Origin: Pisolithus tinctorius
Taxonomy: Eukaryota > Basidiomycota > Agaricomycetes > Boletales > Pisolithaceae
Direction: 5' to 3'
NCBI GenBank assembly: GCA_024663395.1
Contig: JANFAH010000101.1
Coordinates: 1 to 64,000, forward strand
DNA: 64,000 bases
Positions 1,868 to 26,839 of the stretch are shown here, in pieces. Position numbers and translations under genes: made by a program. The first letter of the stretch is position 1, and each line of letters begins with the position of its first letter. The notes under the pieces were generated by a model that saw nothing but the letters and a program-made list of their open reading frames with translations, made no database searches and had not been told where the DNA came from.

Positions 1868-3196
1868 ATGGGTAACCTAAAACGCAAATCCACCGGGGGC
1901 GACGCTCGGAGTCGCGGCACCAAACGTTCTCGACTGCATTCCGACGGTGCACCTATTCCCCCGTTGGACGTAGTCGTGCGAGGCAAATCTTTTGAGCCTA
2001 CGCCTGCGTTCGACACCTTCTGGAAGTTAGCTGCTGAGAGGCACGCAATCGAAGAACGACGCCGCTCCGGCCAACCACCACCGTGAGTATTAATTACGCG
2101 TTAGTTGGTGGTCGCCTGGTGTTTGACATTCTCGAAAAAATACATATACAGGTGGACAAAAGATCCGGTGCTACAGAACCACAAATTTTGCAACACCTTC
2201 AGAATTCTGGATCGCGGTTCCCAGTATCTCGTCACCGAGGTCATCGAAAAGGGCCCTCAGGACCTTGAGGAAGTGACCTTTCGCGTCTTGCTCTTCAGCC
2301 TGTATACCAACATCAGCACGTACGAGACGCTGCGCAAGAAGATCAGGCCCTTCACCTGGTCGGAGTACAGGCGAGAAAACTATGAAAAAGTTCTGCGCGG
2401 GCTCTATGCTAGGGGCGTTGCCATTTATACCGGTGCATATCAGAAGCCAGCTCCCGATTTGGGATTCGCCGAGGCCTTCATGAACCACCTGGCGTTGATG
2501 GAAGTCCTCATGCAGGAGATGCCAGACGTCCTCTCCAAGGCAGAATACATGGCCGACGTCTTTGAGTGGTTGCAGACCTTCAAAAGTATGGGCGACTTCA
2601 CGGCCTACCAACTGCTCCTGAACTTGTCTTACTCCAACGTTATGAGCTTTTCCGACCATGACTTCGTTGTCATGTGTGTCGGGTCTCGCAGAGGGCTTCG
2701 GAGGTGCTTCAAACAAGATATCCCCCGCTCCATGGAAGTGGACCTCGTTCGGTGGATACAATCGAGCCAAGACGATCACTTCGCTCGTCTGCGGCTAAAC
2801 TTCAATGGCCTCGGAGACCAACATCGCCCCATGATGCTTTGCGATATCGAACACACGTTATGCGAGCTTGACAAGTACATCCGCAAGTGCGGACAGTCAT
2901 CAAAGGGCCGTCTGTTTGTGGGTACTGGCGAGCTGGGAGAAATCCGACTGCCGAAGGCGTGGTCCGATAAGGCTAGACAAATCGTACGCATCAAGAACGA
3001 GGAGGAGGCAGAGCCGGACATTATCGAGAAATTCGTTGTTCAGTCGATCGCAGCTCACCGGGTGGTGGACGGGATGATGGAATTCCTGGTTTTCTGGGAG
3101 GGTTATGACCCCGATGAGGCGACCTGGGAGCCAAAGGACTCCCTCATGGAAGATGCGCCAACCATGGTCAAAGCTTACCTGAAGACCATAACTTAG
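1868..3196 (+). CDS. 5-hmdU DNA kinase helical-domain protein with C-terminal chromodomain
   Basis: Two exons, 1868-2082 and 2152-3196 (69-base intron, GTGAGT donor), give 419 residues. Residues 1-72 are a basic N-terminal tail (KRKSTGG, TKRSR). Residues 73 to about 335 match the helical domain first named in phage 5-hydroxymethyl-dU DNA kinases. Family hallmarks seen are a NTFRILDRGSQYL block (residues 86-98), FTAYQLLLNLSYS, and DIEHTLCELDKY. This fold was predicted to act on hypermodified thymine bases and is known in basidiomycetes (aGPT-PPlase family). Residues about 362-419 are a chromodomain with EFLVFWEGYDPDEATWEP, the usual aromatic methyl-lysine reader pattern. No P-loop kinase domain is present, so the protein is unlikely to be a kinase by itself. 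The inferred role is a chromatin-bound factor that reads or processes a modified base. No TET/JBP gene lies in this window. Confidence 0.85.
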
Positions 3197-21429: not shown

Positions 21430-24400
21430 ATGCTCAGGGCTTGGAAAGACGCGTCACAGGGGCAACCCCAGCAGCCCCGTGTGAAAGAGCAGGCCAGCTA
21501 TCAGGATACCCAGTCGCGAAGAACCTGCAGTGGCGAGCCATCTTTGGTCACCGCCGATGTAGCTTCCTCTAATAGTGGTGCCGTCCTGGATAGCGTGCAT
21601 GCTCTCGCCTCGGGTGTAACCAAACGCGCGAGGGATAGTGAAGATGGTGTCGAGAACGCAAAAAAGAGGAAATGCATCTCCGAAGAGTCGATGCACCCTG
21701 GCTCATCCTCCTCACTAGTATCCCTCACGCCAAGTAAGAAGGACACACACGAACAAACCCAGACACGAAACTGTAAGTTTTAGTCCACTGGAAAGGCTCA
21801 CTTTAACGGACGAGTCCCACACCAGCGATTGTTATACTGGATTCCTTCGATGGTATGCCGGAACCTCACTTGCTCCATTCTACTCACAGCTTGATCTCGT
21901 AGACGCTATTGCGTATGCTTCTCGCTTCCTTGAATCGGCTATCGTCCGGGCTACGGTGTCCCCCAAGGTCATTTCCTCTGCTGGGAGAGTTTCTTTGTTC
22001 ATAGTCGAGTATGTTGCAGTCGAATTCATTCGGAGTCCACTAACCACACGAAAGTGAGAGCGTCTCACCCGAGAGTATCACGCGAAGATTAGCAAGCGAA
22101 ACACGTCTCAAGGTGGCTTGCTGCACACCGTCAATAAGTCCCGCCAGGTGGTCGACGTTGATGGAATATCAAGTTGCGGTGTCTTCGATTAAAGTTGGCG
22201 GTATCGTAGTAGCTCTTTGGCATGCACTGACAACAACAACTTAGGCATTATCGGAGCTCCTCACGAAGGGCATTATAAACATGTCGCAATTGCGTGCTCT
22301 CGTGGTATTCGATATGACAACGTCGATTTGCACAAGCTCGACATTGATGAAAGTAATGGAAACTTTCTACCGGCCTGAGAACGCAGATGCACGACCGATC
22401 CTTCTGGTATTATGTTCTTCTGCACGAACCGCCGATATCAGCCAACTCGAGAAATCACTTGACGCCAAAGTTGCATCCAAGTCGGTCATGTCAAGCCTCA
22501 ATAGGCTTCGACCCGTCGAGGTTGTCGTCCAATATGAGCCCCCTTCGGCTTTGCGGGATACCTGGCTCACAGAACGGATTCGTGCCATTCAATTCTGTGA
22601 ACCATTACTCTCCAGGGCATTCTCAGCGGCACGCTGTGTCATGAAAGAACTTGGACCTTGCGCTAGCGACCTCATGTGGCGTCGAGGCATAAAGGGGGAT
22701 GCACTGGTTGTCGGGGACGGTGGCGGCGAGATGGCCAAGGTCACGTCTGAACTGCACAATTTAGTCAAGGGCTGGGCCTTTTCCACGCCAAACATTAACC
22801 CATCCTCCGGAGGTTTTAACGTATCTCCGAAGTTTGCACGACTGGTTCAAATTTTAAAGGCGTGCGAGCTTTACGGCAACAAATTCCGTGGTATTATATT
22901 CGGTGGGGCTCTCTTCCTTCCATTCTTTTGCAACTGACGACGAGGTGATTGCAGTCCAAGAACGAGAGGTAGCAGCTGTTATGGTTGATATGTTGTGTAT
23001 GGCCGCGCACGATTTGGGATTCTTGAGCCCTCTCGCCCTAACAGAGGAATTCCCACTAGATAACTATCATGTTGAGGTATGTCTCCTGACACTCGTAATG
23101 GGGATGCGGTGGTAACTCTCCGACAGGATGTGTGTCACAGTTTTACTGCTGGGAAGTACAACTTGCTTGTTATTCCGAAATCTCTTGAGGACTTGGACAT
23201 CCCACCCGCCTTGGTTGTGGTAAGGTGCGTTGTATACATGACTGTCAGCTTGCAACTACTAACCATGAAAAAGATATGAAGTGCACGAGAGCCAGCTCTC
23301 CTATGCCTACTCATGTGCACGTACGGCCAGAGCTTTCGGTTCTCTGGTGCACATGGTGGAACGCGACAATGATGTCGAGCGCCGCGTGTTGTCACACTAC
23401 CAACATGAGACATTCAATGAGCAGTGGATCGAGGTGGTCGCGACTGGAGGCAGTTCCTTAATTCCGCCACAGTCTTTGATAGAGAATTGTAAGCTGCCTG
23501 ATGGACCGGACGAGAGCGTGGGTCCTTGCATTGAAGACCCTACAACCTCTGGTCGGTTATACGAACGGGACGCTGTCTGTGCTCTCTATCAACTTGTATC
23601 GAGCATGCCCCACCTGTCGAAGGCCTCCCCCCAGCCCCTCTTCGTTGTTAGGGGGAGTACTTGTGACGGGCATTCCGACGAGTGGATATGTGATGTCCGA
23701 TTGCCTTCGGAATTGCTCGCAGAACAAATATCCGGGCCACCTCGTCCCACCCCAGCTCATGCTCGCCGTGCTGCTGCCTTCATCACTTGTGTGCGGTTGT
23801 ATGAGCATGGTACATTCGATCACCGTCTCTTTCTTTATCCACGGTTACCCAGGAAGACACGGGAACTCGCAGAGGTGGAAAAAATTTCCGGGAATCGTTT
23901 CTACCCTCGCAAACGAACACGATTCTGGTCGAATTCGCTTCGCCTTTTCTCTCACATATGGTTTCCTGTGATTTTTCATGTTCTGGGCCATGAAAAACAC
24001 GCTCCAATGTTGTTGTTGACGCGGCAACCTCTCCCGCGCATGCCTTCCTGCCGTCTTTTCATTGAAGGGGTGCCCACTGTGGTCCAAAACGTCCGGGCCG
24101 CACCTGTTGAAATCAGTGAGAATCATCTTCACGCACTTCATTTGTTTACCGTTCGTATCTGTCGTGCGATCTTAAACAAGCCGTTCGCATGTTCCGCCGA
24201 TGATATGGCATACCTGTTTGCACCTCTCCGTTCGTGTGTGACAGAAGACCTCGAGTCGGCGGAATTCCGGCGGATCTTGGATTATGTGCCGTGGGACGTT
24301 GTTTTTCTGGCCGGCAAGGAGTGGGCTGTGAGGCTTGATCCAGATTTCGGCTCGTTGCAGGGTGTAGAAGACATGGTCGTACAGGATCGGATGGTGGAAT

Positions 24401-26839
24401 TTACACGGCGATATTACGCGTCGTGTCTGCGGCGAGACCTGACACCACTAAGCAAACCTGAGGATAGTCCGGTGCGTAAAGATGTGTTAACGTTGCCGTT
24501 CATCGACTGAAAGGCGTATTTGTGTCCAAGCGCGAAGCCGGTTACAGTAACTTTGTAGACTACTGCAAGGCGCGGAGAAAGGGATTTAAAGGCCTGCAGG
24601 ATTACCAACAACCCATGATCGAAGTCACCAAAATCACTGGTGTTTCAAATCATTTGAACCCGGTTTTCAAACCCTTGGCAGAACCTGCGAGGGCTGTGCC
24701 AAAATGTAGGTCAGTTGGAGCACATCAACCTACCGGAATGCTGACATTCCGCAGATCTGATCCCGGAGTTGAGCGCGAAATTTACTATTCCAGCCAGGTG
24801 ATACATTGAGTTTTGTCACCCATGGCCCGATGCCGGGTGGCTAACGTTATGGATTTCAGCACTTTTCGCACAGCTCTTTTGCTCCCGTCTGTGATGAGAA
24901 GGATTGAAGACTTTCTCATCGTGCAAGAGCTTAATGCAGAATTTTTCAATCACTCCATCCACGAAGAGTACCTGTTTAGCGCCATATCCACCCCTTCGGC
25001 CGGGTATGAAGTGGATTATGAAAGACTGGAACTTTTTGGTTGGCAGTTTCGTTAATTTTTAGTCTTGCAAAGATGTTGACTGATTCGGAGGTGACGCCTT
25101 CTTAAAATATCTTGCCTCGATTTATGTCTTCGTTATCAACCCTTCACAGCATGGAGTCTTGCATGCCACACGACAACGTATTATCAGCAACAAAGTATTG
25201 ATGCAGAGCGCTGATCGCAGTGGGTTGCCGCAGTACATTCGAGGGAAACCGTTCAGCTACAAGCTGTGGCATCCACCGAATTTCACAATAGACCCTTTGA
25301 ACGTTGCAGAACGTGAAGTCGTCGGAGATGAAACCACCACTTCTGGGCGTGTGGACACAAATAACCCGGCTACTCGTACCGATGCGGAGGACCGAGCGGG
25401 TGTTTTCCCAAATGTTCAGGAAAGAAAGAAGAAATCCCATGACGAGAGTGCAACCCAGTGGTTGGGTAGCAAGGTATCGCATGCCTTCAATTTCAGGAGT
25501 CACCCTAACCAATTCTTATGCGTAGACCATTGCTGATGTAGTGGAAGCCATTATTGGCGCGGCATATCTGTCCGGCGGGCAGGAGGCTGCTCTCCAAGCT
25601 GCAAAAGCAATGCAGGTTCCGATTCCCAATATCGAGCAATGGGATGACTTCCGTAGGAAGGCATCTCCACCCCCTTCTAATCCAACTGCACTGCTGCGTG
25701 CGGGCTCGGTCGAAGCAGTCGAAGCGATCACTGGCCGAAAAATTTCCAACGTCCGCGTCTTGGGGTGGGCACTGGTGAGTCAACACTGAAGATCACCCTT
25801 GGACGACTCGCAGAGTGTGCTGCAGGTTCACCCTTCCATTGATGGTTGTGACACTGCATACCACGAACAACTGGAGTTCATTGGCGATGCCATTCTTGAC
25901 TTCAGTGAATGAGATGTCTGTCAACGTAAAGTCGGGGACGCTAACTGTTGTTTCAGTGGTTGTTCGATATATCGTCGATCGTTACGGAAAATTGTCTCCT
26001 GGTGCAATGACAATGCTGAAGGTTGGTCCATCCCATTCGCTTCCATTAGTCTGCGTCAACTGGAGTTTCAAGGTGGCCATGGTTTCCAACTCTGCACTAG
26101 CTGCACTTTGCGTATCGTCTGGATTGTACAAACACCTCCATTATGATTCATACTCCCTGGCATGCTCGTTCGAAGCATACGTAGAGAAGGTGGAAACCCG
26201 GCGAGTGCAAGAGACGGAACTAGCCACTCAGAACGGGAGGAGCCCTGGTCAATATTGGCTCGATACTGAATCGCCCAAGGTGCGATGTGCTTGGATAGTC
26301 ACTGCATTAATTGACGTGTCACAGGCTCTATCAGACCTCGTGGAATCCATTATCGGAGCGCTGTTCATCCAAGATGGCTACCAGCCGGTGGGCGCAGAAG
26401 CCTTTTTCGACGGAGTGTTGAGGCCATTCTACGACCGACACGTCACACTCAAGACCCTCTCTCATCATCCCACCAAAATTTTGTCCGACCTGCTGCAAAA
26501 ACACGGATGCCAGCACTTTGAATTAGTGAAGGAGACGTGTGATGCCAAACAAGAAACACGATGCGATGGTGAGCTACAGGCTCTCGTGTGCGTCACGTAA
26601 ATGAACTTAAAATACGATTTGCAGTGGTTGTCCACGAAATCATTCTAGCAAGCGCTATAGCGTCTACAGTGCACGCTGCTGGCCGTGCAGCCTCACTGGC
26701 TGCTTTGGATGCGCTTGAAGGAGATACCAATTTCATGAACGGAACATGCACTTGTAGATCCAGTTCGCGGGGAAAGGGGGCGCGCAAAATGCTCCTCGAC
26801 GAGATGATGGTAGGGATAGACGTTGAAACAGTATCCTGA
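21430..26839 (+). CDS. Dicer-like ribonuclease III with degenerate helicase domain
   Basis: Cuts double-stranded RNA into siRNAs in the RNAi pathway. In order: a Ser/Lys-rich N-terminus with a bipartite-type basic signal (TKRARDSED, AKKRKC), a helicase-like half (about 21.8-23.4 kb), the Dicer dimerisation fold (DAVCALYQLVSSMPHL), a platform/PAZ-like region, RNase IIIa, RNase IIIb and a weak dsRBD. The RNase IIIa signature ERLELFGDAFLKYLAS is joined over an intron ending at about 25090; its partner motif is TIADVVEAIIGA. RNase IIIb has YHEQLEFIGDAILDF and LSDLVESIIGA. All acidic catalytic residues appear present, so cleavage should work. The helicase half lacks a GKT loop, and the DECH position reads FDMTTS (about 22308-22325). 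The late helicase block is better kept (KSLEDLDIPPALVVVRYEVH). Splicing of the first 900 bases is unresolved. Confidence 0.9.

Follow-up and report, generated by a model that had tools for sequence, protein, structure and literature searches.

The window analysed here comprises bases 1–64,000 of a 138.8-kb contig (C101, JANFAH010000101.1) from the 92.5-Mb genome assembly of Pisolithus tinctorius. A two-exon gene at positions 1868–3196 codes for a protein of 419 aa, in which a domain of the family PF18723 (HMUDK_hel) is joined to a C-terminal chromodomain. The explanation that we favour, with some reserve, is that this protein is a chromatin-targeted reader of an oxidised pyrimidine, and the steps proposed below for its action are one reading of the data. 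If this is true, the part of a phage and bacterial base-modification toolkit that recognises the base would have been reused as a component of eukaryotic chromatin, and genomes with many TET/JBP genes would have in this protein a candidate for a reader of oxidised pyrimidines.

The fusion, which a preliminary description of the window had proposed, was borne out by the profile searches suggested there. When scanned against Pfam with hmmscan, residues 45–323 (2000..2905, forward strand) matched PF18723 with 370.2 bits (cut-off 25, E 9.1e-111) over positions 1–280 of the 281 in the profile. Residues 366–416 (3032..3184, forward strand) matched PF00385 (Chromo) with 47.9 bits (cut-off 25.1, E 1.2e-12), and phmmer aligned the same region to CBX1. 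The protein is a member of both families. No other Pfam family was found in it at E ≤ 0.1, neither the HhH-GPD family PF00730 nor any kinase or P-loop family, including PF18748, and NCBIfam has no family for this reading frame. Among the papers listed in a title-level literature search, none was on a PF18723-chromodomain fusion and none on fungal PF18723 by name or accession, which is no proof of absence. In a screen of fungal transposable-element co-option, neither HMUDK nor PF18723 occurs in the main text (PMC10799480).

The gene starts at position 1868 and ends with the stop codon at 3194–3196. Its span had been given correctly before, without mention of the 69-nt intron that lies inside it (2083..2151, forward strand, GT..AG). 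Three GT..AG options that leave a length divisible by three were tested and only one was free of internal stops; the unspliced frame contains stops. Exon 1 (1868..2082, forward strand) encodes a basic N-terminus, which by eye resembles a nuclear localisation signal (KRKS...TKRSR), and the beginning of the PF18723 domain. The bulk of this domain, which spans the intron, and the entire chromodomain are encoded in a single open frame by exon 2 (2152..3196 including the stop codon, forward strand). A profile search of the genome placed the exon-2 part of PF18723 at 2150–2905.

The same genome search yielded two PF18723 matches only, the copy in the window and one on contig C4. The C4 copy is 98% identical in DNA, has an intron of equal length and encodes a protein with two amino-acid differences, no stop and an intact fusion. 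Most simply, the two copies are alleles of a single-copy gene. Since the two domains share one open exon and the C4 copy is intact, the fusion is not an artefact of joined genes. Between the copies, six codons carry silent changes and two carry replacements (rate of replacement changes, dN, 0.0021; rate of silent changes, dS, 0.0217), and 8 of 1257 coding sites differ compared to 30 of 1167 and 23 of 1100 sites in the flanks. This pattern suggests that the protein sequence is under constraint, although the sample is small.

Relatives were collected from the viral database IMG/VR (best 80 of at least 481) and by a scan of prokaryote contigs (best 80 of at least 527 among 588 candidate stretches). 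Bacterial counts refer to 74 of the 80 loci, as L100, L120, L122, L135, L152 and L155 gave no intact-frame match and were excluded. The preliminary description had spoken of a helical domain known from phage 5-hydroxymethyl-deoxyuridine (5-hmdU) DNA kinases. While the family assignment holds, PF18723 is a separable module and not part of the kinase, and its Pfam name "5-hmdU DNA kinase, helical domain" is misleading. The fungal protein does not qualify as a 5-hmdU DNA kinase, as no P-loop domain was found in it, a point on which the preliminary description was correct. The kinase interpretation was rejected on these grounds and because the genome search gave no match to PF18748, a search that had no positive control, since no control genome gave a match either.

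The separability of the domain is evident from the viral proteins, of which 77 of 80 are 270–423 aa long. The remaining three are longer and are fusions, two with a PF18748 kinase and one with a glycosyltransferase. The latter (L022, 1372–3882) combines PF18723 with a group 1 glycosyltransferase and suggests glycosylated 5-hydroxymethyluracil (5-hmU) DNA. Stenotrophomonas phage Sonora encodes PF18723, the kinase PF18748 and the amino acid:DNA transferase PF18724 as separate proteins, all three in one cluster with a thymidylate synthase. Vi01_130c of phage ViI, one of the phages with hypermodified thymine, shares the PF18723 domain with the fungal protein and has it as its sole Pfam match. In flanks of up to 3 kb a side, 18 of the 80 viral loci have a kinase-like gene, 22 have a gene resembling a glycosyltransferase, 40 have neither and none has both (phmmer, E ≤ 1e-4, with three kinase and four glycosyltransferase sequences as queries, fused genes included). 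If the partners were independent, about five loci with both would be expected (18 × 22 / 80, relatedness ignored). The two partners thus look interchangeable. Since PF18723 stays constant across two chemistries, which presumably act on the same hydroxymethyl group, we infer that it recognises 5-hmU in DNA and presents it to the partner enzyme, probably by flipping the 5-hydroxymethyl-pyrimidine out of the helix. A thymidylate-synthase-family gene is present in 47 of the 80 viral loci; in bacteria, 45 of the 74 loci have one within 3 kb of PF18723. With such neighbours, 5-hmU would fit as the substrate. Overall, PF18723 looks less like a portion of the kinase than like a substrate-recognition module common to 5-hmU-modifying systems, which calls its family name into question. 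Some of the phage genes adjoin kinase, glycosyltransferase or amino acid:DNA transferase genes, unlike the fungal gene, and no chromodomain was detected in ten viral proteins scanned with Pfam, whereas the fungal protein has one.

The family is shared with phages, to whose enzymes the preliminary description had referred, but bacterial chromosomal proteins are the closest among the relatives found, judged by identity among the best 80 of each set. Identity to the fungal protein ranges from 34 to 42% (median 37%) for the 74 bacterial proteins and from 23 to 32% (median 26%) for the 80 viral ones, all of the latter over at least 200 aa. Six named phage proteins share 21–29% identity with it. Based on these values, phages are not favoured as the nearest source. 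Features shared with the bacterial proteins include RxSQ, C257 and PxxW; none of six bacterial proteins scanned with Pfam has a chromodomain, in contrast to the fungal protein. A quick tree of 82 rows, which omitted the three fusions and, of the viral and bacterial rows that remained, every second one, suggested a place for the protein inside the Actinomycetota (SH-like approximate likelihood ratio test 95). An origin from this phylum was not upheld, since a 47-row tree does not reject a position outside the bacteria (approximately unbiased test, p 0.60), the tree constrained to that position being 4.8 log units better. We make no claim on donor or direction of transfer, as the trees do not settle a position inside the bacteria.

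The bacterial genes often lie in clusters that resemble operons, with neighbours related to nucleotides and defence. Anywhere in the locus DNA examined, MazG/MazG_C-type genes were found in 42 of 74 loci, IrrE-like genes in 32, helix-turn-helix (HTH) genes in 27, dUTPase/dCTP-deaminase-like genes in 22, TIR genes in 18 and Nmad2 in 15. These counts rely on profiles built from neighbour clusters, each named after one or two representatives, and the larger bacterial thymidylate synthase group was named from a sub-cut-off match of one representative (TIGR03283, E 2.3e-8). A thymidylate-kinase-like domain is part of 9 of the 74 PF18723 proteins (Pfam-checked in L116), and among those scanned with Pfam fusion to MazG_C occurs in two and fusion to MazG alone in one. 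In the loci L099–L178, PF18723 clusters with a very divergent thymidylate synthase homologue (weak TIGR03283 match; representative without Pfam match), IrrE/HTH, MazG_C, TIR and Nmad2. Such clusters are widespread and are a candidate for a defence system based on nucleotide modification. A published study lists a 5-hydroxymethyluracil kinase and a thymidylate synthase among the domains newly validated in anti-phage defence, and predicts a defensive role for aGPT-Pplase and MazG-C domains (PMC13092281). A protein of phage Morrigan annotated as "aGPT-Pplase1" matches PF18723, which may or may not be one of the domains of that study. The protein of L105 has no family in PADLOC or NCBIfam. At L109 (6873–7958), a radical SAM protein lies immediately downstream of PF18723, and this gene cluster is found downstream in 4 of 74 loci. 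The MazG_C partner of the bacterial operons gave no match in the fungal genome in a search without positive control. No MazG_C or thymidylate-synthase-like partner was found in ten scanned of the twelve long frames listed for the window; thymidylate synthase was not searched for elsewhere in the genome.

Structure prediction, which had been proposed as a further check, yielded a model with a mean predicted local distance difference test (pLDDT) score of 82.2 from a 65-row alignment, replacing a single-sequence model with a mean of 39.0. On the basis of the model, the PF18723 domain is predicted to have a DNA-glycosylase-type helix-hairpin-helix (HhH) fold, with PUGT, Qng1 and HhH-GPD glycosylases as the closest predicted likenesses; among 50 listed fold matches, 44 are HhH-GPD glycosylases or homologues, two are PUGT and two are Qng1. 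The superfamily is proposed on the basis of the fold. PUGT, the 5-phosphomethyl-deoxyuridine (5-PmdU) glycinyltransferase gp46 of phage PaMx11 (PDB 8z2n, 8z2m), shares 9% identity with the fungal protein; the likeness appears to be one of predicted fold and need not extend to glycinyltransferase activity. Qng1/DUF2419 and the HhH-GPD glycosylases (Ogg, AlkA, EndoIII, MutY) appear alike in predicted fold; the fungal protein has no PF00730 match. Predicted models of proteins from two further phages with hypermodified thymine, the SP10 5-hmdU DNA kinase (F8WQ30) and C9DG43 of PhiW-14, match the fold of the fungal protein and share its invariant residues. Profile comparison with hhalign gave nothing for E. 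coli Nth and MutY, a weak alignment to E. coli AlkA (E 0.0074, probability 5%) that ends in AlkA GIGRWTAN, and a weak match to a phage amino acid:DNA transferase (E 0.0045, probability 8%). A helix-hairpin-helix-like motif, KSMGDFTAYQ (residues 216–225, 2582..2611, forward strand), corresponds to the family motif GxGxFxAYQ and to the fold match.

Given this predicted HhH-GPD-type fold, the protein might act as a DNA glycosylase or eraser and excise oxidised pyrimidines in silenced chromatin, an explanation that appears rather improbable to us. The acidic residue D240, which is E in 74 of 74 bacterial proteins, falls at the position that we take, by residue spacing, to be that of the catalytic Asp of HhH-GPD enzymes. 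However, this position varies in the viral rows (E in 18 and I in 18 of 64), and the position which we assume to be that of the lyase Lys is occupied by F221, as it is in all viral (64 of 64) and all bacterial (74 of 74) rows. The missing PF00730 match also speaks against this explanation, nine other PF00730 matches in the genome are available for the job, and phages with modified DNA should presumably not excise their own bases.

Conserved residues were determined from 64 viral and 74 bacterial rows, after 16 of the 80 viral proteins had been left out (the three fusions and 13 others by eye). The three motifs quoted in the preliminary description, including LCELDKY, are present in the translation. 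Two conserved stretches stand out, N86-x-x-R89-x-x-D92-R93-x-S95-Q96 (2192..2224, forward strand) and LCELDKYIR (residues 308–316, 2858..2884, forward strand). Of 42 columns that are invariant in 74 of 74 bacterial proteins, the fungal protein keeps 31, among them the polar residues N86, R89, D92, R93, S95, Q96, C309, E310, K313 and R316. It differs at 11, with Y123, T124, A180, F181, N229, D240, C247, V248, M299, E305 and Q320 in place of F, N, K, H, D, E, G, P, L, Q and P, respectively. N86, R89, D92, C309, E310 and K313 are invariant in all 138 rows (64 of 64 viral, 74 of 74 bacterial) and are kept here. D229 and G247 are invariant in the same rows and are replaced by N229 and C247; these two are features found in this study and not Pfam criteria, so that profile membership is unaffected. 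K180, present in 58 of 64 viral rows, is A180 here. The pattern is what would be expected if enzyme activity had been lost while a binding site was preserved, but a new substrate might look alike.

These residues bear on the earlier proposal that such proteins make or read hypermodified thymine. It seems unlikely that the protein is an active enzyme which adds, or assists in adding, a hypermodified pyrimidine where chromatin has methylated histones. In favour of such an enzyme, many viral and bacterial relatives adjoin nucleotide- or base-modification genes and the six polar residues invariant across the family are kept; on the other hand, the kinases and glycosyltransferases of the viruses form domains of their own. 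Because the bacterial residues N124, K180, H181 and D229 are lost and the genome search, which had no positive control, gave no PF18748 kinase, a reader or recruiter is more likely than a maker of hypermodified bases. Hence making is without support, while reading is compatible with the data. It is also doubtful that the PF18723 domain has decayed to general DNA binding, with the chromodomain providing the targeting. The long branch of the protein (1.42 compared to a median end branch of 0.34 in the 82-row tree) and the loss of 11 of 42 bacterial invariants would fit such decay, whereas the 31 invariants kept and the apparent constraint between the two copies argue against it.

The chromodomain aligns with CBX1/HP1 proteins (CBX1 1ap0, phmmer E 1.6e-7, 33.8 bits). 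F366, W387 and Y390 align to Y, W and F of CBX1, so that all three cage positions, which we take from work on HP1, are aromatic and the aromatic cage recognised earlier is confirmed. Three aromatic cage residues are shared with HP1/CBX and retroelement chromodomains, but here the chromodomain is joined to a base-handling domain. The genome contains 146 further chromodomain matches with 31–44% identity (150 of 495 candidates scored), the best of them with 35.4 bits compared to 33.8 bits for CBX1. Some lie in open frames of 1,000–1,300 aa, which resemble retroelement polyproteins, and others in short frames; all three aromatic positions are retained in four that were inspected. Judged by these alignments, the chromodomain may have been captured from a retroelement or may derive from an HP1-type copy.

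A source of oxidised bases may be present in the same genome. For TET/JBP (PF12851), 150 exon matches were scored of 186 candidates and 149 are above the curated cut-off; the counts are of exon matches, and both haplotypes may be counted. Several share the same score, as would be expected of repeated copies borne by transposons, and no listed match is on contig C101. The DNA cytosine methyltransferase family gave three weak exon matches. A bioinformatic study reports transposon-borne TET/JBP genes in fungi, cites CcTET of Coprinopsis as an oxidiser of 5-methylcytosine and mentions hydroxymethyluracil only in a reference title (PMC12730594). In Laccaria and Coprinopsis, 5-hydroxymethylcytosine (5-hmC) and 5-formylcytosine are enriched in transposable elements, and neither "5hmU" nor "reader" occurs in the main text of that report (PMC8889193).

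Taken together, the reader that we favour would be a host nuclear protein whose N-terminal HhH-glycosylase-type domain binds DNA and accepts a flipped 5-hydroxymethyl-pyrimidine, either 5-hmU or, in this organism, 5-hmC. In the viral relatives, the domain would do the same recognition job for a partner kinase or glycosyltransferase. The C-terminal chromodomain would dock on a methylated histone tail. Acting together, the two domains may mark or retain DNA in which an oxidised pyrimidine coincides with a silencing mark on histones, and transposon chromatin would be the most likely target. The oxidised base would come from the numerous TET/JBP dioxygenases of this genome. It is plausible, as suggested earlier, that the protein is linked to modified pyrimidines and to silenced chromatin. 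A more elaborate version, which we regard as quite improbable, is that of a dual-key silencing reader or eraser acting only where a pyrimidine oxidised by transposon-encoded TET/JBP meets a silencing histone mark. In this version, a bacterial-type modified-base domain and a chromodomain, the latter possibly retroelement-derived, would recognise transposons by their own escape chemistry.

The gene neighbourhood is of ordinary host type. A scan of ten long frames identified a ribosomal S3Ae protein, Dicer-like domains and a small chain of ribonucleotide reductase, and a thiolase was recognised by eye. On the reverse strand, open frames at 1–1751 appear by eye to form a divergent, basic low-complexity gene upstream of the PF18723 gene, with which it may share the promoter region. 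The Dicer-like gene, with Dicer_dimer and RNase III frames, is located at 23269–26597 on the forward strand, about 20 kb from the PF18723 gene.
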